Position numbers and translations under genes: made by a program | Notes under the pieces: generated by a model | What the model was told of the DNA's origin: nothing | The model's database searches: none | Seen by the model: only the letters and a program-made list of their open reading frames with translations | Part shown: piece after piece, positions 2,391 to 53,926 of the stretch | How the letters are laid out: every line of letters starts with the position of its first letter | Numbering within the stretch: position 1 is the stretch's first letter | From: Pomphorhynchus laevis | Lineage: Eukaryota; Acanthocephala; Palaeacanthocephala; Echinorhynchida; Pomphorhynchidae | Length of the DNA: 64,000 bases | NCBI GenBank assembly: GCA_012934845.2 | Contig: WNNJ02000681.1 | Location: 1-64,000, forward strand | Direction: 5' to 3'

Positions 2391-3430
2391 ATATAATAAT
2401 TATAAAATAATAATAATTATTTTTGTTCTAATAAATAAAAATAGATAAAAAACAATAATGCTAAATCAATACTTCAAAATTTAATATATAACATTTAGAT
2501 AGATATCAATATTTCATAAAGAGGACAACATTTTAAAACGGCTGTATTATTTATATAAACTTCACAGAATACAACGCTATATTTATTATCCTCTTTAATA
2601 TAAAATAATATAATTTAGTATAAAATTATAAAATTACGATATTATAAAATATCGTAATTTAGTTTATTAGCATTTCTAATTTAAGATCTTCACTTGTAAA
2701 ATCTGTTGTAATTTTTTATTTCGCATTAAACAAATAAATAAAAATAAATAAAAATAATATAATTTATATCAAGTTAAAATTGAAAATTGAAATTTAAAAA
2801 TTTAAAAATTTAAAAGTTTTATAAAAAACCGATAGTTTCTACACCTTAATGTAGCTAAATATATAATAAAATAATTATAAGATTAGTTATAAAATAATAT
2901 TATTATAAATATAATAATTATAAAATAATAATAATTATTTTTGTTCTAATAAATAAAAATAGATAAATCAATAGACAAACATTTAGACAACATTTTTTAA
3001 TAGATAACATAAAGAGGACAACATTTAAAAACGGCTGCATTATTTTTATAAACTTCACAGAATATATCCCTATATATATTAATTATCCTCTTTAATATAA
3101 AATTAAAGACAGATTCATTTGAATTTGTAAAATCTTATGGAATATTTAAATCAAAATTTAATAATTAGATAATAAATAATTATAAATAATTGTTATAAGA
3201 TTTTAATAACTAAAAGTCAATTTTTATGAATTGACTAATAAATAATAGACGATTAATCAGAATAAGGATTAATGGTCATCAGGAGGAACTGATATGCTAT
3301 CAGGTTTCTCGTCCTATATATCTACCCAATAATTCAGCGATGCCAAATGCATGCTAATGACGTAATTAATGCTAATAATGATAATTATTTTTGTTCTAAT
3401 AAATAAAAATAGATAAAATAATAATAATGC
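2391..3430. repeat. AT-rich direct repeat, period about 510 bp
   Basis: A block with the phrase TTTTTGTTCTAATAAATAAA, followed by an AAAGAGGACAACATTT segment and a CTTCACAGAATA segment, occurs at 2391-2620 and again at 2905-3107, about 510 bp apart. The first phrase recurs a third time at 3372-3430. No coding potential is seen. It lies beside small-retroelement 3' ends and may be an older derivative of them. Confidence 0.6.
3268..3362 (-). other. Structured 3' element of small retroelement, copy A (decayed)
   Basis: It carries the conserved order found in the other copies: GTCATCAGGAGGAA, a pseudoknot region and a trailing ATGCATGCTAATGACG hairpin region. The two pseudoknot helices are mostly lost here and the far side of the outer stem is missing. 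Confidence 0.5.
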
Positions 3431-3606
3431 TAAATCAATAAATCAAAATTTAATAATTAGATAATAAATAATTATAAATAATTCTTATAAGATTTAATAT
3501 AATTTATATCAAGTTAAAATAAACAATCGAAATTTAAAATATAGGTCAAATTTTATGAATTGACTAATAAATAGCAAACGATGTGTCAGTATATAGATTT
3601 GAGGTT

Positions 3607-3704
3607 ATCAAGAGGAACTGCTATGTTATCAGGTTTCGGTCCATATTCCTTGACACAACATAGCAGCGGGGCCAAGTACGTGCTAATGACGTATATCTTC
3701 TGAT
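3607..3704 (-). other. Structured 3' element of small retroelement, copy B
   Basis: CTGCTATG pairs with CATAGCAG (3659-3666). GGTCC (3638-3642) pairs with GGGGCC (3668-3673) if one U-G wobble is allowed on the strand as given. TACGT (3677-3681) pairs with ACGTA (3689-3693), where other copies have TACAT/ATGTA, a compensatory A-T to G-C change. The outer stem, ATCA near 3607 with TGAT near 3704, is weaker here. Confidence 0.65.
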
Positions 3705-3739
3705 GAAATTTGATTATATAGTATCTTATTCTAATACAA

Positions 3740-4180
3740 AGTATATTATTTATTATCTATCCATAGAAATTTGCCACTTAAGAGTTTAAATTTATTCTTT
3801 ATATTATTGTGTTGATTTATATATTTTACTATTTTCTGCTTGATGTTATTTTTATAGTAACCTAGTTTAAAATATGCATCTATTAAATTATTTAAATGAT
3901 TTTGAAGAAAGCCAATATCATTATAAATTGTTGCAATTCTTAAAATTTCATTATTTAATGTATTATATTTTATATTATATGGTATGCATGAATGCTCATG
4001 CAAAAATATGTTTCTTGTAAATTTAAATATGTCATCTTTACGATATAAATTAAAGGAGTTTTGATTGATGTTAATTTAATGTTTATATCAAGATATATAC
4101 TTTCTTTATCATTAATATTAAATTTTTGTGCTATTTGTATTTAAATTATTTAAATGATTTTAAAGAAAGTCAATATCATA
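3740..4180 (-). pseudogene. 3' part of small-retroelement reverse transcriptase
   Basis: The minus strand encodes the C-terminal third of an RT-like protein: a YLD motif, an LYRKDDIFKFTRNIFLHEH segment, then a helical Lys-rich tail ending GKFLWIDNK. An 85-codon part (3746-4003) is open. The same segment occurs near 5.5, 13.8, 50.7 and 53.1 kb. The copy is 5'-truncated, and 4137-4180 is a second small piece of the same region in the same orientation. The family resembles RTs with GxPMG and YIDD motifs common in aquatic invertebrates and possibly allied to Penelope-like elements. No intact copy is in the window. Confidence 0.7.
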
Positions 4181-4890: not shown

Positions 4891-5091
4891 CTAAAATCAT
4901 AATAGCTAAATATTTTTTTATTAAATCATAATAAACATATCCCATATGCTGGATGGTCGGTCTTTGGAAGTCTCAAGCACCAATATTTAATAATCAAATT
5001 AAATAATATAATAATATATAATAAGTGAATGAAAAGATCCAAAACTATATGATGGATTTATCCATATGAAAATTATTATCTTTATGGATCA

Positions 5092-5640
5092 AATCAGCAA
5101 ACTAAGTCTGCGTATTTAATATATTCATAAAATAAACAAAACATAATAATGCTAAATCAAAACTTAATAATTAAATAATAAAATAAATAATTGTTTTAAG
5201 ATTTTCTATAATTTAAATCAAGTTAAAATAAAAAATAAAATTTAAAATAAACGTCATTTTTATGAATTGACTAATAAATAACAGACGTTGTATCAGAATA
5301 AGAATTAGAGGTCATCAGGAGGAACTGCTATGCTATCAGGTTTCGGCCCCTAACTCCTCTACCCAACATAGCAGCGGGGCCAAATACATGCTAATGATGT
5401 ATTTCCTCTGATAAAACTATCTAGTATCTTATTCTAATACAAAGTATATTATTTATTATCCATCCATAAAAATTTGCCACTTAAGAGTTTAAATTTATTC
5501 TTTATATTATTGTGTTGATTTATATATTTTACTATTTTCTGCTTGATGTTATTTTTATAGTAACCTAGTTTAAAATATGTATCTATTAAATTATTTAAAT
5601 GATTTTGAAGAAAACCATTACATATTGTTGCAATAAAAAT
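5092..5640 (-). mobile_element. 5'-truncated small-retroelement copy C (RT tail, structured element, 3' UTR)
   Basis: From high to low coordinates it holds the end of the RT frame (about 5635-5445), the inverted arm TCTTATTCTAATAC (5427-5440), the structured element (5314-5412), the matching arm GTATCAGAATAAGA (5290-5303), and an AT-rich 3' UTR ending near 5092 at the shared terminus. It is nearly identical to the copy at 50661-51204 and is truncated at almost the same 5' point. Confidence 0.75.
5314..5412 (-). other. Structured pseudoknot element, copy C (reference copy)
   Basis: Helices on the plus strand: outer stem ATCAGGAGGAA (5314-5324) with TTCCTCTGAT (5403-5412), one bulge; CTGCTATG (5325-5332) with CATAGCAG (5367-5374); GGCCCC (5345-5350) with GGGGCC (5376-5381); hairpin AAATACAT (5382-5389) with ATGTATTT (5397-5404), whose last bases compete with the outer stem. 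The second and third helices interleave, giving an H-type pseudoknot. A further 14-nt inverted pair (5290-5303 with 5427-5440) encloses the whole. Function is unknown. Confidence 0.7.
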
Positions 5641-6455: not shown

Positions 6456-6953
6456 ATGTGTGCCAAGAAGAAAAATGTATCAAGAGGTAGGCAAGCAAAC
6501 TCAGGGGATACCGACAACAACAGGAAATTCGAGAGTGTACAAGTGGAATGTTCAACTAGCGGTTGTCAAATTTGGACATCGGTAACACACATTTGTGATT
6601 TGGGTGATGATACTGACGACGGACCACCATTTTATTGCGGATTTTGTGCGGCGAAGCAAATCAATGTGTTGGTTGAACGTTTAAAGCAATTGGAAAAGGT
6701 ATTGCAGTGTGGCGGATTTTCTCAAGTTCCAAATGGATCTATCCTGGTAAACGCAGCTTCTACCGAATGCGTATCAGCTGAATGCAACCTACACAAACAT
6801 GCTACCTTGGCTAACATCCCCAAATCACAGTCTGGTAGTAATAACAACCGGGTGGATAACGACAAACCGAACGTATCTGCTGTCCGCTCAGAAATGGCTC
6901 ACAACTCGCAACTACAAATCAAGTACAGATCTAGTCATGCCTACATGAAGTAG
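6456..6953 (+). pseudogene. CR1-type ORF1 N-terminus with PHD-like zinc finger, truncated
   Basis: A 165-codon frame from ATG. Residues about 31-70 carry Cys/His pairs (VECSTSGCQIW, HIC, YCGFC) followed by a leucine-rich helix (INVLVERLKQLEKVL). This is the layout of the PHD-like finger and coiled coil at the start of CR1-clade ORF1 proteins, which bind element RNA. The stop codon lies inside a perfect palindrome (6921-6973), so the frame is ended by a foldback rearrangement. ORF2 does not follow. Confidence 0.6.
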
Positions 6954-9739: not shown

Positions 9740-12015
9740 ACTTTAATTTCTATATACAAGCTTCGATTTTAATCATACAAATAAGATAAGATACGCCATA
9801 TTTTATTTGCGGATATTTAGATAATAAATTATCTAAACATATCGCTTTAACTTTACTTTATATATCCTTAGATAATAAGCTTAGATTTTAATCGTACAAA
9901 TAAGATAAGATCCGCGATATTTTATCTGCAGATATTTAGATAATAAATTATTATTTAAACATATCTTTTTAACTTTACTTTTTATATCCTTTGATAATAA
10001 GTTTCGATTTTAATCATACAATTAAGATAAGATATGCGATATTTTATCTGCAGATATTTAGATAATAAATTATTATTTAAACATATCTTTTTAACTTTAC
10101 TTTCTATATCCTTAGATAATAAGTTTCGATTTTAATCATACAAATAAGATAAGATACGCTATATTTTATCTGCAGATATTTAGATAATAAATTATCTAAA
10201 AATATCGTTTTAACTTTACTTTCCATATTGTTTGATAATAGGTTTCGATTTTTAACAACAAATTAGATAAGATACGCGATAGTTTATCTGCAGATTGTTA
10301 GATAATAAATTATTATCTAAAAATATCTTTTTAACTTTACTTTCTATATTCTTGATAATAAGTTTCTATTTTTAATCATCAAATAAGATTAGATACGCGA
10401 TATTTTATCGACATTTAGATTATAAATTATTACCTAATAATATCGTTTTAACTCTACTTTCTATATCCATGCAATAATATTCGATTTTTAATCATCAAAT
10501 AAGATAAAATACACGAAATTTTATCTGCAGATATCTAGATAATCAATTATCATCTATAAATATCTTTTTAACTTTACTTTCTATATTTTTAGTTAATAAG
10601 CTTCGATTTTTATCGTCAAATAAGATAAAATACGCGATATTTTATCTGCAGATATTTAGATAATAAATTATCTAAAAATATCGTTTTAAATTTACTTTTT
10701 TTATCCTTTGATAATAAGCTTCGATTTTTAATCAACAATTAAAATAAAATACGCGGTATTTTATCTACATATATAGATAATAAATTATTAACTAAAAATG
10801 TCGTTTTAACTTCACTTTCTATGTCCTTATAATAATATTCGATTTTTAATCATACAAATAAGATAAAATACGCGATATTTTATCTGCAGATATTTAGATA
10901 ATAAATTATCTAAAAATATCATTTTAACTTTACTTTCTATATCCTTAGATAATAAGCTTCGATTTTTAATCATCAAATAAGATAAAATACACGATATTTT
11001 ATCTGCAGATATTTAGATAATAAATTATTTTCTATATCTTTTTAACTTTACTTTTTATATCCTTTGATAATAAGTTTCGATTTTAATCATACAATTAAGA
11101 TAAGATATGCGATATTTTATCTGCAGATATTTAGATAATAAATTATTATTTAAACATATCTTTTTAACTTTACTTTCTATATCCTTTGATAATAAGTTTC
11201 GATTTTAATCATACAATTAAGATAAGATATGCGATATTTTATCTGCAGATATTTAGATAATAAATTATTATTTAAACATATCTTTTTAACTTTACTTTCT
11301 ATATCCTTAGATAATAAGTTTCGATTTTAATCATACAAATAAGATAAGATACGCGATATTTTATCTGCAGATATTTAGGTAATAAATTATCTAAAAATAT
11401 CGTTTTAACTTTACTTTCTATATCCTTAGATAATAAGCTTCGATTTTTAATCAACAATTAAAATAAAATACGCGATATTTTATCTACATATATAGATAAT
11501 AAATTATTAACTAAAAATGTCGTTTTAACTTCACTTTCTGTGTCCTTATAATAATATTCGATTTTTAATCATACAAATAAGATAAAATACGCGATATTTT
11601 ATCTGCAGATATTTTAGATTTTATTATCTAAAAATATCGTTTTAACTTTACTTTCCATATTGTTTGATAATAGGTTTTGATTTTTAACAACAAATTAGAT
11701 AAGATACGCGATAGTTTATCTGCAGATTGTTAGATAATAAATTATTTTTAATAGGCTTCGATTTTTAATTATCAAGATAAAATACACGATATTTTATCTG
11801 CAGATATTTTGATAATAAATTATCTAAAAATGTTGTTTTAACGTTAGTTTATGATTGTTAGTTATCGAGCATAGATTTTTTATCCTCAACTATAATAGGA
11901 TTCGCGATATTTGAGCGGAAGGTATATTAATAATAGATTCTAATATTAAAATATCGAATTAGCTTTACTTTTTTATTGTTAACTAACGAGCACTGATTTT
12001 TATCTTCAACTAAGA
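9740..12015. repeat. Satellite array, monomer about 120 bp, about 19 copies
   Basis: Monomers contain TTTTATCTGCAGATATTTAG, ATAATAAATTATCTAAA, TTTTAACTTTACTTTCTATA and ACGCGATA. Successive copies of GATATTTAG are spaced 119-122 bp. Several monomers are shortened, and divergence rises toward the right end (after about 11750). Each unit can fold through GATAA/TTATC dyads. It ends at a cluster of perfect hairpins. Confidence 0.9.
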
Positions 12016-13565: not shown

Positions 13566-14440
13566 AGGTAGGGACATCTATATTTAAACAAAAAGTGTTC
13601 CAATGGGTGGTAATAGTAGTCCAAGTAGCTTTATGGTAGTCCAGGTATCTTTATTCTTAACAAAACCAATATTAATGATAAAGAAGGTGTATATCTAGAT
13701 ATGAAAATTAAATAATAATTGACTAAAGCTACTATTAATTTATATCGTAAAGATGACATATTTAAATTTACAAGAAACATATTTTTGCATGAGCATTTAT
13801 GCATACCATATAATATAAAATATAATACATTAAATAATGAAATTTTAAGAATTGCAACAATATGTAATGATATTGGCTTTCTTCAAAATCATTTAAATAA
13901 TTTAATAGATACATATTTTAAACTAGGTTACTATATAAATAATATCAAACAGAAAATAGTAAAATATATAAATCAAGAAAATTTCATTAAAAATACATTT
14001 AAACCCTTAAGATGGATAATAAATAATATACTTTGTACTAGAAATAATATACTAGATAATCAAATTTCATCAGAGAAAATTCCTCATTATCATGCATTTT
14101 ACCTCCTTGCTATGTTGGGTCGAAGAATAAGGTTTTTTACTGATTATATAGTAGTTCCTCCTGATAATATACATCGTATATTATTTATTAGTGAATTCAT
14201 AAAAATTGATTTTAATTTTACTTTGTGATAATAAATTTTATCGTTATTTTATTAATATACATTGTATATTATTTATTAGTCAATTCATAAAAATTGATTT
14301 TTATTTTAATTTTCAACAATAAATTTAATCGTTATATAAATTGTATAAAATCTTATATAATTATTTATTATTTGTAATTATTTATCTTTATTTTTATTTA
14401 TATAAAATATGTAATCTCAGTTATCTGACGTTATTAGTTG
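13566..14440 (+). pseudogene. Small-retroelement copy D: RT 3' half plus structured 3' end
   Basis: It begins with a degenerate form of the motif B region, continues through a broken YLDM motif and an open RT tail (13719-14228; LYRKDDIFKFTRNIFLHEH), then the 3' UTR. The structured element at 14068-14165 keeps the outer stem (ATCAGAGAA with TTCCTCCTGAT). The first pseudoknot helix is reduced to ACCT (14101-14104) with AGGT (14130-14133), a different but still complementary pair. Confidence 0.7.
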
Positions 14441-22575: not shown

Positions 22576-23450
22576 ATATTTTAAAATCCAGTTTGCTGAA
22601 ACAAATTACTAAGCCGCCGTAAATTGAATTTTGTATACTTAAATGATTCATAAATGTACACCTTATTTATCACTAAGTATATAACATGTATTTTATTACG
22701 TGGAACATAAATTTGTTTAATTAAGTAGCGAATATTTGCATATCTTTCATTAAATGGGATATTGAACTAAATAATTTCAATTTTATATGCAAATAACATT
22801 TTATAAGTAAATAAAATATTCTCGAATACGCAAACATACTGGTCATTTATCCTTCAATTATTATCATTTGCTTTAGCATTTTATCCTACGTGGCAACAAG
22901 TTCATTATATTTGTTGGATACACAAACATATTAATGCATAATGACGGCACACATTTTCAATAAATAAAAATTCAAATAATTTAAGAAACAAAAATTAAGG
23001 TATTCCATCTGTATAAATTCGTAATTATTTAGCTGCTAAAGATGTATAACGATGAGGAATATGCGCCAAAACCTGATAACATAACAGTTCCTCTTGATGA
23101 CCTCTAATCCTTATAAATAAAAGAAGTAAACATAAAATAAAATAATTTACTTGTGAAAAGTCTTAATGTGTAATAAACTTCAAACCACATTTCAAAGGAC
23201 AATTAAATATTAATTACTGGACAATCAATTATTTTAATTTTAAAATATACTTTTAAAACTAAAAATAAAAAATCAATTATTGCGATCTTTAATTTATTTT
23301 GAATCCACAATAAATTTGTTTAATCTATTGTAGAACTAGATGCAAATACTTTTCTGATTTGTACATAAGAATTTACCTATTTAAAATATATGACTTACAA
23401 TTAAATTTAAATAAAATCTTATAGCAATTATTTACAAAAATTTATTATTT
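22576..23450. other. 3' flank of the cysteine-motif gene and AT-rich DNA
   Basis: It holds the probable 3' UTR with AATAAA at 22809-22814 and a small-retroelement scrap at 23063-23108 (AACCTGATAACATAACAGTT then CCTCTTGATGACCTCTAATC), the right part of the structured element. No gene is seen. Confidence 0.5.
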
Positions 23451-25110
23451 AATTATTAAAGTGATTTTGAAACTTTTGAATTGGAACAGCGAAGACAAAA
23501 CAAAATTGTAAAATTTATAATTCATCAAAGCTAAAAAATAAATTTAATCTCTTAATTTGAAAATATTGATGGATCGATAATATATTCTGTGTTAGAATAA
23601 GAAATTATAATAAAACATTAAATTACATCAGATGAAATATATTTTAATCAATTCATAAAATTTGTCTTTCATATAAAATTTCAATTTTTTTTATTTTCAC
23701 TTCATATATATTATATTATTGTGTTATTGATACGAAATTTAACTGATTTTTAACTGAGTTTTGAATAGGACCAGCAAACACAAAACAAAATTGTAATAAT
23801 TCATCAAAGTAAAATATATTTAAACTCTTAATTTGAAAATATTGATGGATCGATAATATATTCTGTGTTAGAATAAGAAATTATAATAAATAATTAAATT
23901 ACATCAGATGAAATATATTTTAATCAATTCATAAAATTTGTCTATCATATAAAATTTCAATTTTTTTTATTTTCACTTCATATATATTATATTATTGTGT
24001 TATTGATACGAAATTTAACTGATTTTTAACTGAGTTTTGAATAGGACCAGCAAACACAAAACAAAATTGTAATAATTCATCAAAGTAAAATATATTTAAA
24101 CTCTTAATTTGAAAATATTGATGGATCGACAATATATTCTGTGTAAGAATCAGAAATTATAATAAATAATTAAATTACATCAGATGAAATATATTTTAAT
24201 CAATTCATAAAAATTGTCTTTCATATAAAATTTCAATTTTTTTTATTTTCACTTCATATATATTATATTATTGTGTTATTGATACGAAATTTAACTGATT
24301 TTTAACTGAGTTTTGAATAGGACCAGCAAACACAAAACAAAATTGTAATAATTCATCAAAGTAAAATATATTTAAACTCTTAATTTGAAAATATTGATGG
24401 ATCGATAATATATTCTGTGTTAGAATAAGAAATTATAATAAATAATTAAATTACATCAGAGGAAATATATTTTAATCAATTCATAAAAATTGTCTTTCAT
24501 ATAAAATTTCAATTTTTTTTATTTTGACTTCATATATATTATATAATTGTGTTATTGATTCGAAATTTAACTGATTTTTAACTGAGTTTTGAATAGGACC
24601 AGCAAACACAAAACAAAATTGTAATAATTCATCAAAGTAAAATATATTTAAACTCTTAATTTGAAAATATTGATGGATCGATAATATATTCTGTGTTAGA
24701 ATAAGATATTATACTAAATAATTAAATTACATCAGATGAAATATATTTTAATCAATTCATAAAAATTGTCTTTCATATAAAATTTCAATTTTTTTATTTT
24801 CACTTCATATATATTATATTATTGTGTTATTGATACGAAATTTAACTGATTTTTAACTGAGTTTTGAATAGGACCAGCGAACACAAAACAAAATTGTAAA
24901 ATTTTTAATTCATCAAAGTAAAATATATTTAAACTCTTAATTTGAAAATATTGATGGATCGATAATATATTCTGTGTTAGAATAAGATATTATACTAAAT
25001 AATTAAATTACATCATAGGAAATATATTTTAATCAATTCATAAAAATTGAATTTTAAATTTTAATTTTTTTATTTTCACTTGATTTAAATTATATTATTT
25101 TTTCTAACTA
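23450..25110. repeat. 276-bp satellite derived from the small-retroelement 3' end
   Basis: The phrase GATGGATCGATAATATATTC recurs at 23569, 23845, 24121, 24397, 24673 and 24954: exact 276-bp spacing four times, then 281. Each monomer contains, in retroelement order, TTTAAACTCTTAA, GATGGAT, TGTTAGAATAAG, ACATCAGATGAAATA and TCAATTCATAAAA. These match the end of the RT frame and the 3' UTR, but the pseudoknot segment is absent. Monomers are nearly identical, so the array is young or homogenised. Confidence 0.9.
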
Positions 25111-25139: not shown

Positions 25140-25400
25140 CAATTTCAAAGAGCATTTACTTTGAATAAATGTGAGTGGTTCTCGTCACAATCCGACGATT
25201 CTACATATCATGGATGGATAATAAATAATATATTCTGATACATCGTCTGTTATCTATGATTCAACTCATAAAAAAATTACTTTTATTTTAAATTTCAATT
25301 TTTTATTTTAAATATCCATTAATATCAATTGTATAAAATCTTATATAATAATTTATTATTTATCTTTATTTTTTATTAATTTATTAAAAAAATACGTAGA
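25140..25400 (+). repeat. Small-retroelement 3' UTR fragment with internal deletion
   Basis: It contains ATGGATGGATAATAAATAAT, then directly GATACATCGTCTGTTATC and the CAACTCATAAAAAAATTAC segment. The structured element between them is deleted, as in the satellite monomer next to it. Confidence 0.65.
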
Positions 25401-35200: not shown

Positions 35201-38200
35201 TTGATAATATTTTTTATTGTTTTTATACTTTATAAACTCAAATTTTAATTTTATGCTCTTTGATCATCTCTACTATAAATATACCAGCCATTTAAATTCC
35301 AGGAATAGAAAATATTATCAGACAAAACGATCTATTTAAAATAAAACATTAGAAGTAAAATATAATATTTACGGAAGTTTGTATAACTTGTAATTTTGTA
35401 ATATATTTTTATTAAATCATTTAAGCGATATCTCAGCTATTATTACAGATAACCGTTGAACATATATCCTTTTTAAGTAAAGGTTCAAATATTACAGGTT
35501 AGGCTATGAAAGAATATCTTAGCCGAATAATGAAAAATACTGAATCGTTTAATCGAATGATTGAAGAAGATGCAATGTGGGCCACGAGAAATCAAAATCA
35601 ATCAAAATTAGTAACTAAGGTGCATTACCTGTATCCAATAAGATACTATCTTGTATTCCAGTTGATACTGTATTGTCTAATAATATCGATCGAACAAGCA
35701 CGGTATATTCATGATCCTTTACTAAAGATAAATTCAAATTATAATTGCACAATTTCATCAAATTAATTATAAATTAAATATTATTTAATTAAAATTCGCA
35801 ATTTTACATCAAAATTCAAGATGCTTAATTACTTCTAGATAAAAATGTTTCTACAAATCTAGCATTTTAATTCCAAATTATTATTAATTTTAGTAATGCA
35901 TTCAGATTTAAGTTAACGTCATAAATTTGATAGTAAATAAATATTTTAAGTGAACATCATGATTAACGTATAATTAACATCATTGTAGTTAGCGACTAAA
36001 GCTATTAATTGTAGATTTCTTACGAGCTAATTATTATTCGAGCATTCTTGTCTTACTATTAATCTTCATAATTTTCAAACTATTTTTTTAATTTAAATTC
36101 TCTTCGAATGAAAATATTTTTGTAAACAATAATTAATGTTAATAAATCAGATTAGTTATCTGTGCCTACGCGTTTAGTATTATATATAAATTTGAAAATA
36201 GTATATGCCTAAGAATTAAGATTGGAGGTCATCAGATTGAATTGCTATAGTATCGGATTTCACGTCCTATTCCTCAATACATCATAACAGCGTGAGGCAA
36301 ATACATGCTAATAATGTATTTCCAATTCGATCAAGTAGCGTAATACCTTATTCTAACATAATATAATTGATTATTTTTAGATTTTAAATATTTTTGTTTG
36401 ATTTTTTTATAATATCTGAGTTTCCATATATTTGTTTTATATACGTATATAGGGTATATTGATATACTATATTTATTATAGTATATCATTATAGTATATT
36501 ATTATTGTATTAATATTAAATTATTAAATTATTTTATATACTATATACTATATTAAATTATTTTATTGATTTTAAAGAAAACCAAATTATTATCATCGGC
36601 AATTCTAAAAATTTCATAATTAAAAATTTAAAATTGAAATTTAAAATAAAAGTTAATTTTTATGAATTGACTAATAAATAACAGACGATGTATCATAATA
36701 AGGATTAGAGGTCATCGTGAGACACTGCTATGCTATTAGGTTTCGACCCCTATTCCTCAACCCAGCATAGCGGTGGGTCCAAATTAACGATTAACCTAAA
36801 TTGCCTAGTTGCTGATTCAATCAATAATTGATTGGGGTTAGTACATTTATAAAATAAAGTTGAAATTTTATTTTATATTACCCTGGTTTCACCGAAATGT
36901 GAAATGTAAGTATTGGATCAGTAGCTGATGAGATTTATCAATCTGAAATGTTGCGTACTGCTGTTGGCTTATAGATAGCATTAAAGAAACGTGCAAGATA
37001 AAATAAAAAATTTCAATTGTGACAATAATTGCACAATTAAATTAACTAAAATTTGGAAACATATTATAGATGACTAGTTTGAAAATAGCAATTAATTGCA
37101 AAAATAGGTGAGTATTCAAATTGAAGGTATTACCTTCCCTTACACGCTGATTTAATTTGAAAACATAAATGATTCCAATTAAATTTGCGAAATACAAGAC
37201 GAGTATTTCATCAAATTTAATTGTCAATAAAGTAGACGAATCGAATGATCGTCAGCCAACATTAAAAGAACCGAAAGCTGAAAGGAAGGTATTGGATCAT
37301 TAGTTGATCAGGTCCACCAATACTGGAATGAAGCGTAATGTTGTTGGCTTATAGATAGGATTGAAGCAGCGTTCAGGATGAAAAACAGTCATCAAAATTT
37401 CAATAGTAACAATGACTGCACTGGTATAACAACCTTTGATAATAGTAATTAATTTCAAAAATAGATAAGTTTTAAAAATTGAAGGTTGAACCTTTCCATA
37501 CTTTTGCTGATTTAATTTCAAATCAGAAATGATTTCAATTAAATTTGAAAATGTAAGATAAAAGTCTTTCATTAAATCTAATTGTCAGTAAAATCAGACG
37601 AGTTAACTGATTGTCAGTTAACATTATAAAACCGAAACGTGAAATGTAGGTATTGGATCAGCAGCTGATGAGGTTCACTAATACTGAAATGCAGTGTACT
37701 GCTGCTTGCTTATAAATAGCATTAAAGCAACAAGCAACGTGTAGTATAATCGAAAATTTCAATTGTAACAATTAAATTGACATAAAATGTTTGCGAAATT
37801 TCATTTAATGTATAACACAATTAAATGCGATTTGTTTTTTAATGTGTGTTAAGATTTAGAATGGTTTAGAATTAAATGCTTATTTCATGAAGGTTTAATA
37901 GCAAAATAGATTACTTTTAGTAATTCTTTTATATTTTAGCAAGTAATTAAACGAAATTCTAAATATTATTATTTTATATTAATTAAATCAATCTTAATTA
38001 TAATTCGAAAATTCGCAAGGTCAAAAACAGACATTTGATAGACTTTCTAAAGTTAAAAATATTATTCGATAAGGACAATTGTTTAATAAAATATTAATTG
38101 TTTAAAAAACATTTGTTTTATTGTATAACATAAATTCATTTAAAAATAGATCATTGAAAATTATTTTTCATATTTCTCTAGATACTATTTCAGAATAGAA

Positions 38201-50660: not shown

Positions 50661-51204
50661 TGATATTGCCTTTCTTCAAAATTATTTAAATAATTTAATA
50701 GATACATATTTTAAACCAGGTTACTATAAAAATAACATCAAGCAGAAAATAGTAAAATATATAAATCAACACAATAATATAAAGAATAAATTTAAACTCT
50801 TAAGTGGCAAATTTTTATGGATGGATAATAAATAATATACTTTGTATTAGAATAAGATACTAGATAGTTTTATCAGAGGAAATACATCATTAGCATGTAT
50901 TTGGCCCCGCTGCTATGTTGGGTAGAGGAGTTAGGGGCCAAAACATGATAGCAAGCAGTTCCAACTGATGACCTCTAATTCTTATTCTGATACAACGTCT
51001 GTTATTTATTAGTCAATTCATAAAAATGACGTTTATTTTAAATTTCAATTTTTTATTTTAACTTGATTTAAATTATAGAAAATCTAAAAACAATTATTAA
51101 TTTTATTATTTAATTATTAAATTTTGATTTAGCATTATTATGTTTTGTTTATTTTATAATTATATTAAATACGTAGACTCAGTTAGCTGATTTGATTGGT
51201 TATG
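50661..51204 (+). mobile_element. Small-retroelement copy G, nested in an RTE fragment
   Basis: It starts inside the RT tail (DIAFLQNYLNNLIDTYFK), runs to GKFLWMDNK and stop, then the arm GTATTAGAATAAGA (50844-50857), the structured element (50872-50969), the matching arm TCTTATTCTGATAC (50980-50993), a 3' UTR, and the terminal GCTGATTTGAT. RTE sequence resumes directly on either side. Confidence 0.8.
50872..50969 (+). other. Structured pseudoknot element, copy G (element-sense strand)
   Basis: Outer stem ATCAGAGGAA with TTCCAACTGAT; hairpin AAATACAT with ATGTATTT; GGCCCC with GGGGCC intact; the second pseudoknot helix is altered (GCAAGCAG in place of CATAGCAG), a change shared with copy H at 52864-52961, so the two are sister copies. 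Confidence 0.7.
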
Positions 51205-52734: not shown

Positions 52735-53926
52735 ACTATAAAATAAACAAAACATAATAATGCTAAATCAAAATTTAATAATTAAATAATAAAATTAATA
52801 ATTGTTTTTAGATTTTTTATAATTTAAATCACAGACGTTGTATCAGAATAAGAATTAGAGGTCATCAGGTGGAACTGCTTGCTATCAGGTTTCGGCCCCT
52901 AACTCCTTTACCCAACATAGCAGCGGGGCCAAATACATGCTAATGATGTATTTCCTCTGATAAAACTATCTAGTATCGTATTCTAATACAAAGTATATTT
53001 ATTATCCATCCATAAAAATTTGCCACTTAAGAGTTTAAATTTGTTCTTTATATTATTGTGTTGATTTATATATTTTACTATTTTCTGCTTGATGTTATTT
53101 TTATAGTAACCTAGTTTAAAATATGTATTTATTAAATTATTTAAATTATTTTGAAGAAAGTCAATATTGTTACAAATTGTTGCAATTCTTAAAATTTCAT
53201 TATTTAATGTATTATATTTAATATTATATAGTATGCATGAATGATCATGCAAAAATATGTTTCTTGTAAATTTTAATATGTCATCTTTACAATATAAATT
53301 AAAAGTAGTTTTAATTGATGTTAATTTAATGATCATATCAAGATATAGACTTTCTTTATCATTATTATTGATTTGATTAAGAATGAGGCTACCTGGATAA
53401 ATTTGTTCGCTTATTGAATAAAAATTGATAGAATTAAATACACATATAATATCAATATATCGAAACATATATTTCATATCTTTATATAATTTAGATTTAT
53501 TTTTTAAACAGTTATGAACAAATTCATATTCTATAAAGCTTAAAAACAGGTCAGCTATAATTGGACTACTATTACCACCCATTGGAACACCTTTTACTTG
53601 TCTAAATATAGATGTCCCTACTTTTAAATAATTTTGATTTATCAAAATATTTAAGGATTCTATTAATTCAGTTTTTCCATATATTTATATTTACTTGATG
53701 GTTTAATTTAAAGCGTACTAAAATCGTATGTATTTATATTTTGAAAATTTATTCCTTTTGTCTGTTCTAAAAATTCTTTCGTAGAATTAATACTGAAATA
53801 GTGTTTTATACCAGTATTAATTTCGATTACCCTGCAATATTTTTTGAAGTGTGTTTTAATTACTTTAAGTATTTTATTCATATAAACCAAAAGCGATTTT
53901 AATGTACATTTAAAAGCACTGTACAT
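52735..53926 (-). pseudogene. Most complete small-retroelement RT, with copy H of the structured element
   Basis: From high to low coordinates: a frame ending INTYDFSTL (motif A, 53708-53926), a frameshifted gap, then 220 codons (52983-53645) with RQVKGVPMGGNSSPIIADLF (motif B), FRYIDIICVFN (motif C, second Asp replaced by Ile), YLDMIIKL, LYCKDDILKFTRN and the basic tail. The altered motif C and the gap make it inactive. The structured element is at 52864-52961. The RT family is known from many invertebrates, with an FDFSTLYT motif A and a GIPMG motif B. Its formal class is not certain to me; Penelope-like is my best guess. Confidence 0.75.

Follow-up and report, generated by a model that had tools for sequence, protein, structure and literature searches.

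The window considered here, that is, the whole stretch of 64,000 nucleotides that was analysed (29% G+C), contains a repeated module whose transcript can form interleaved helices, and the locus raises the questions of which element carries this module, whether its pairing exceeds chance and what such a folded RNA would be used for. The eight copies named in a preliminary description were all recovered, and seven of them match the copy at 5314 at 73-97% identity: 50804..51052 (plus strand, 97.2%), 52825..53026 (minus, 96.1%), 36630..36784 (minus, 86.5%, truncated in helix H2), 3530..3777 (minus, 85.1%), 3208..3367 (minus, 82.6%), 14011..14220 (plus, 73.8%) and 36212..36374 (minus, 73.4%, with helices H1 and S1 diverged). 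A ninth fragment of the module was found at 23065-23114. In the 249-Mb assembly (3242 contigs), a 22-mer of the module has 4,876 exact occurrences, and a looser module pattern with at most three mismatches gave 12,258 matches, against five for a reversed control.

Some copies are arranged in series. At L037:7587-8319, three module units follow one another head to tail at a spacing of about 283 bp, and the one that comes first in sense order is fused to RT coding sequence; contig C3088:237671-241915 holds six module copies, as three pairs about 435 bp apart, in a tandem-like arrangement. Derivatives of the element were also observed in the window, namely a 276-bp tandem array (23474-25099) whose unit has the element's outer-arm sequence without the module, as if internally deleted, and a stretch at 25210-25290 in which the two outer arms, each reduced to a part, are joined, again without the module. 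The window further includes a large 122/238-bp satellite array (9758-11746), a plus-strand ORF of 760 aa (5-2287) that matches the reverse transcriptase domain RVT_1 (E 4.2e-12) and belongs to a protein family other than the one preceding the module in the fetched loci, and a plus-strand ORF of 165 aa (6456-6953) whose cysteine pattern resembles, by eye, a PHD-type finger and which gave no Pfam match at 1e-3.

It had been proposed that the module lies in the 3′ UTR of a small retroelement. The 3′ UTR was confirmed, but neither the size nor the strand was: judged from its sequence, the element is a Penelope-like retroelement of the Naiad type, subject to 5′ truncation and with its GIY-YIG domain at the N-terminus, its sense strand is the minus strand of the window, and the copy seen here is a truncated one of a full element. 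Since the element lies on the minus strand, its RNA is the complement of the strand read in the preliminary description. This copy occupies 5088..5634 (minus) according to BLAST extents against the fetched loci and the listing of 3′ ends, with its 3′ end near 5088-5091 and its 5′ end near 5634. The C-terminal remnant of the RT ORF (5452..5634, minus) ends in ...NKFKLLSGKFLWMDNK, residues that also end the ORF of L034 and P0001, and is followed by the stop codon TAA (5449..5451, minus), which lies 39 nt inside the core; 8 nt further downstream the fold opens with the outer helix H0, and the module is separated from the 3′ end of the element by about 220 nt.

The same anatomy was observed at other loci. 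In 19 of 28, a common left boundary (plus orientation) was found about 230-290 nt from the 22-mer, with variable right ends, which is the pattern of 5′ truncation in an element on the minus strand; in the other nine the left end lay earlier or elsewhere. A common 3′ end, CTCAGTTAGCTGATTTRATT, was shared by 21 of 30 loci (15 exactly, six nearly) and, together with the varying 5′ ends, is as expected under target-primed copying. Upstream of the module in the minus-strand sense, a single uninterrupted frame of 908 aa occupies L033:5768-8491; it ends in ...KLLSGKFLWMDNK and is closed by a TAA within the core. Only L032 and L033 were seen to have the frame from its start, and their common 5′ boundary lies about 7 nt ahead of the ATG.

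A search of 5.8 billion proteins, in which 8000 candidates were scored, gave 14 relatives, one at 97% and the other 13 at 27-37%. An alignment of 13 sequences showed the order GIY-YIG, CxC and RT motifs wherever rows extend far enough. The Pfam GIY-YIG domain was matched at the N-terminal end of both relatives scanned (P0002 at 89-171 and P0004 at 70-154), in regions that align with VVYLIQC...LQYIGKT of L033, the L033 protein itself having no Pfam match at E ≤ 1. The GIY-YIG domain lies N-terminal to the RT, and between the two the cysteines C355 and C357 reach at least 90% conservation across the 13 sequences of the alignment. The CxC motif is a defining mark of Penelope-like elements with an N-terminal endonuclease (EN), and Craig et al. 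in 2021 reportedly described this domain order for the N-terminal-endonuclease elements Naiad and Chlamys, to which, on the evidence of domain order, the element here corresponds. The AlphaFold model of the protein had a mean pLDDT of 77.9, a PDB sequence search returned no match, and a search of viral contigs for relatives gave 28 pattern matches, none of which was confirmed.

Within 5290-5440, each of the helices first described was found in its place when the sequence was read and folded, although the helices are longer than had been claimed; all coordinates that follow are on the minus strand. The outer helix H0 pairs GTATTAGAATAAG (5428..5440) with CTTATTCTGATAC (5290..5302), and H1 pairs ATCAGAGGAA (5403..5412) with TTCCTCCTGAT (5314..5324), with one bulged C. 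H2 is a hairpin, ATACAT-(7 nt)-ATGTAT, at 5384..5402 (arms 5384-5389 and 5397-5402). Of the two interleaved helices, S1 (also H3) joins GGCCCC (5376..5381), which extends to UUUGGCCCC (5376-5384), with GGGGCC (5345..5350), which extends into GAA (5342-5344), so that UUUGGCCCC/GGGGCCGAA comprises 9 bp with one G-U. S2 (also H4) joins CTGCTATG (5367..5374) with CATAGCAG (5325..5332), the latter lying inside the selecting 22-mer, and the interleaved helix GCUGCUAUG reaches 12 bp when extended with G-U pairs. The helices adjoin with almost no linkers, and loop L1 measures 0-1 nt, L2 about 16 nt and L3 about 12 nt. L2, TTGGGTAGAGGAGTTA (5351..5366), was placed between the S2 5′ strand and the S1 3′ strand from sequence and alignment, and L3, GAAACCTGATAG (5333..5344), is nearly invariant in an alignment of fetched loci that were chosen via the 22-mer containing L3. 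The 14-nt inverted pair said to enclose the module is present, but it belongs to a longer, imperfect inverted repeat (about 48 nt) that extends back over the last codons of the ORF, and the 3′ arm of this long outer repeat (5256..5289), which can pair with the ORF end, differs by 0.005 in young copies.

As pairing potential, the fold is real and far beyond chance. The best pair of interleaved helices reached -41.0 kcal/mol of stacking, compared with -20.7 +/- 3.2 in 2000 dinucleotide shuffles, none of which was as good (the best reached -36.9). Nested RNA folding gave z = -4.3 over 165 nt and z = -6.5 over 250 nt, with 0 of 200 shuffles as good in either case. Unconstrained nested folding of the 99-nt module gave -31.0, and folds with S1 only or S2 only were nearly as good; under constraint, values of -27.1 with S1, -28.1 with S2 and -12.9 with neither were obtained, and that S1 and S2 together would win is an additive estimate rather than an energy computed for the pseudoknot. 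The RNAalifold consensus of an alignment of 51 copies recovered the H2 hairpin alone (6 pairs). Interleaved helices in the 3′ UTR, a feature of the R2-type recognition pseudoknot, were observed here as pairing potential.

The preliminary description had taken paired changes among copies to point to a selected RNA structure. The changes that it quoted are in the sequence, but GACCC/GGGTC (36745/36775) pairs, by eye, only after a one-base register shift, and in register two pairs of that helix are broken. In the fetched loci, 66 distinct copies span the module; under a slightly different cut there were 55 distinct sequences, of which 51 were aligned and four short or very divergent rows dropped. 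In this alignment 92.4% of pair cells were standard, and 19 cells were changed on both sides, compared with 7.4 +/- 2.3 in label shuffles (0 of 500 as high). A null was then built by redistributing substitutions along a FastTree tree (300 nulls), and under it the claim found no support, since none of the 43 pairs was significant, those of the two interleaved helices included, for which covariation had been named as a check. The best pair was H1 61/157 (E = 0.19), followed by H2 71/81 (E = 0.41), H3 91/127 (E = 0.44) and H3 89/129 (E = 1.2). The double changes are therefore not beyond what the tree of copies yields, and selection was not established by the paired changes.

The direction of single changes gave a similar result. 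Events making a wobble pair and events making an A-C pair numbered 45 and 33 (p = 0.21), a balance from which no clear strand-specific RNA signal emerges, and H3 was the fastest-changing helix, with 5.75 events per column. On internal branches, pairs were broken more often than kept: changes from Watson-Crick comprised 17 transversion breaks and 11 to A-C against six to G-U and two double changes, and there were four further changes from G-U to Watson-Crick and one from G-U to a mismatch. At the H2 pair 71/81, all four internal-branch changes kept the pair. Paired columns did not have significantly fewer internal changes in proportion to terminal ones (p = 0.17), and in each of two subfamilies a shared change breaks a pair (col 57/161, seen in 14 copies, and col 22/186, seen in seven). 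Genome-wide, the H4 pair 104/147 was C-G in 3893 copies, U-G in 77, C-A in 70 and U-A in three, with no significant excess of doubles (Fisher p = 0.17) or of wobble (77 vs 70, p = 0.62). For the S1 pair 89/129, a G-to-A change at col 89 was accompanied by a compensating T, counted by eye, in eight of the 49 copies listed (194 in the genome), and in a comparison set unselected on col 89, with two C69 copies omitted, by the same T in four of 98 listed copies, a weak excess (p = 0.02, or 0.08 without near-identical pairs). All ten fetched copies altered in the S1 3′ strand were uncompensated or non-homologous upstream. The copies are probably mostly dead and freely mutating, so the covariation test has little power, and the missing covariation does not disprove the fold.

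Slower change was observed when 23 young copies were compared pairwise, with the 22-mer excluded from the module count and most copies coming from loci picked via that 22-mer. The module differed by 0.019 (column bootstrap 0.011-0.028) and the 3′ tail by 0.036 (0.024-0.049), an interval that slightly overlaps that of the module. The ORF end differed by 0.035, the 3′ arm extension by 0.005, the H0 3′ strand by 0.007 and the H1-H0 spacer by 0.016; no slowing relative to the tail was seen in the H0-H1 spacer (0.068) or in the 5′ strand of H0 (0.040). The module is thus about two and the 3′ arm about seven times less different than the tail. In the 38 copies with both flanks, values of 0.075 for the module, 0.058/0.055 for H0, 0.050 for the 3′ arm, 0.157/0.137 for the spacers, 0.082 for the ORF end and 0.188 for the tail were obtained, the last being inflated because some copies have different 3′ ends.

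Between the two functions first proposed, an RT-recognition fold is the best supported, and self-cleavage stands without positive evidence. We suggest, giving the idea about half of our confidence, that the module is the 3′-UTR core of a Naiad-type Penelope-like element, with its endonuclease N-terminal, and that the folded RNA is recognised by the element's own RT/endonuclease. The folded RNA would be a cis signal bound by this protein, which would thereby select its RNA and position it for target-primed reverse transcription, in a manner analogous to that of the 3′-UTR pseudoknot of A-clade R2, with no homology claimed. Such elements can follow one another in tandem, and the same fold would then precede the next ORF as a pseudo-LTR (pLTR); because the next tandem unit would start almost at its ATG, the 3′ UTR would probably double as a leader, a part that pLTRs play in other elements of the Penelope-like group (PMC11167929 and the available part of PMC3846280). 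Recognition is favoured by the pairing beyond shuffles, the element anatomy, the slow module and 3′ arm, the H2 pair 71/81, the abutting helices and precedent; against it count the covariation result, the wobble balance, the fast H3, the broken pairs, the nested folds that are nearly as good with S1 or S2 alone, and the H0 5′ strand and spacer. The precedent comes from R2, whose avian and turtle proteins bind a 3′-UTR pseudoknot and whose insertion is restored by compensatory mutations, according to the portions of PMC12180492 and PMC12222951 available, and in the accessible text of PMC3846280 bdelloid Penelope pLTRs were judged enough to mobilise a foreign gene. However, for the one full-length Penelope-like protein for which an in vitro study was found, from an element with the canonical domain order and a hammerhead, the RNA needed was the first 172 nt of the ORF (PMC11167929), which counts against a simple transfer of R2 recognition.

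It is also conceivable, though rather unlikely, that the helices and inverted repeats are incidental traces of the element's origin (through inverted duplication, palindromic pieces of pLTRs or DNA-level hairpins) and that the RNA fold has no function. The core is quasi-palindromic, to the extent that a model of it also matches its antisense strand (as on the plus strand at window 5255-5472, E 4e-7), palindromes are found in the pLTRs of other Penelope families in the part of PMC3846280 available, and the copies show neither significant covariation nor wobble bias. A plain inverted duplication, however, yields nested rather than interleaved helices, and the module and 3′ arm are less different than the tail.

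An undescribed self-cleaving ribozyme, which would process tandem or read-through transcripts in place of the Penelope-like pLTR hammerhead, is improbable, and so, by a shade more, is the idea that it forms a new ribozyme family and the missing hammerhead counterpart in N-terminal-endonuclease Penelope-like elements. Naiads are said, after Craig et al. in 2021, to be without canonical hammerheads. The position is pLTR-like, with some copies in tandem, the fold is a compact one of several helices in which the interleaved ones abut, and the loop GAAACCTGATA is near-invariant in the sample, an invariance due in part to sampling because loci were chosen via the 22-mer that contains the loop. In other Penelope-like elements a hammerhead sits at the same place (PMC11167929). 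Against this, no Rfam family was matched at its threshold in the window or in nine loci (L031-L039), HDV and twister included; at E ≤ 10, window 5080-5500 (421 bases) gave only snoTBR7 (11.9 bits vs 45, E 8.6) at 5259-5300 on the plus strand, outside the module, which was taken as chance, and gave no hammerhead or HDV match. Moreover, since cutting at one point might pile up insertion 5′ ends there, the 5′ ends of 96 distinct copies reaching the 3′ part were located: 42 lay at model position 2-3 and 54 were scattered, the densest 5 nt (model 121-125) holding six, so that no sharp peak lies within the fold, which is weak evidence against cleavage-defined templates.

The hammerhead comparison was carried to the level of motifs. 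As first described, CTGATGA and GGAAA were seen on the sense strand in the order of a type II hammerhead with stem I missing; of the 51 copies in the alignment, most have both motifs and some have them altered (e.g., window 3571-3739, L001 and L015). A type II hammerhead on the minus strand was rejected, since the flanks of the would-be cleavage site and of CTGATGA do not pair by eye and stem I is therefore missing. The would-be stem II (GAGG/CCTC) is paired in 88% of the 51 copies, and the diverged copy at 36231 keeps, by eye, most of H1 and has lost stem II (its H1 5′ strand is gapped in the alignment and uncounted).

A role as a translation or stability element of the mRNA, for example an entry site for the next tandem ORF or a block to decay, is less probable still. 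The fold comes directly after the stop codon and, as the two copies with the longest ORF begin within about 7 nt of the ATG, a downstream tandem ORF would have the 3′ UTR of the previous unit as its leader; on the other side, there is no downstream frame for readthrough and no Rfam match at thresholds. Stop-codon readthrough was rejected because another stop in the same frame lies no more than 15 nt further on, and a selenoprotein SECIS because no UGA is in frame in the L033 ORF. Given the kinship of Penelope RTs with TERT, a telomerase-RNA-like pseudoknot was also considered, and was rejected because the loop lengths (L1 0-1, L2 about 16, L3 about 12 nt) do not fit.

Compared with known systems, the element shares with Naiad elements the domain order, the CxC between EN and RT and the high copy number, and we know of no structured 3′-UTR RNA in Naiads. 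HDV ribozymes have a set order of P1 and P2 strands, and HDV-like ones are defined by P3, P1.1 and a C-containing L3 between the P2 5′ and P1 3′ strands. The S1/S2 order here is the P1/P2 order of the HDV-like ribozymes of retrotransposons, but P3, P1.1 and a C-rich L3 are missing and the fold is not at the 5′ end; in the main subfamily the loop TTGGGTAGAGGAGTTA (L2) has, by eye, no C, and an HDV-like ribozyme is not supported. With the Penelope-like pLTR hammerhead (PMC11167929), the module shares the broad element type and the pLTR-like position, and CTGATGA and GGAAA occur in most aligned copies, whereas its order would be type II, stem I is missing and CTGAT is used in H1. Permuted hammerheads of the orders SGC, CSG and GCS, described in the available part of PMC10085705, likewise involve pseudoknots with CUGAnGA, whereas the block order here would be the classic G-S-C, not among the new ones of that part, and stem I is absent.

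Among the matches listed in a literature search (titles and abstract openings of open-licence PMC papers), none linked a pseudoknot or other structure in the 3′ UTR to Penelope-like elements. A compact and very abundant 3′-UTR RNA with pseudoknot pairing potential, in the N-terminal-endonuclease branch, offers a defined substrate for tests of binding, priming and cleavage. The closest parallel is the A-clade R2 3′-UTR pseudoknot, which, in the available portions of PMC12180492 and PMC12222951, likewise has interleaved helices and belongs to the 3′ UTR of a retroelement that uses target priming. It lies in the last 65-67 nt of an element of another class, whereas the candidate signal here lies about 220 nt from the end and within a long helix. 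If recognition holds, R2 and Penelope, two unrelated kinds of target-primed elements, would both use 3′-UTR pseudoknots.
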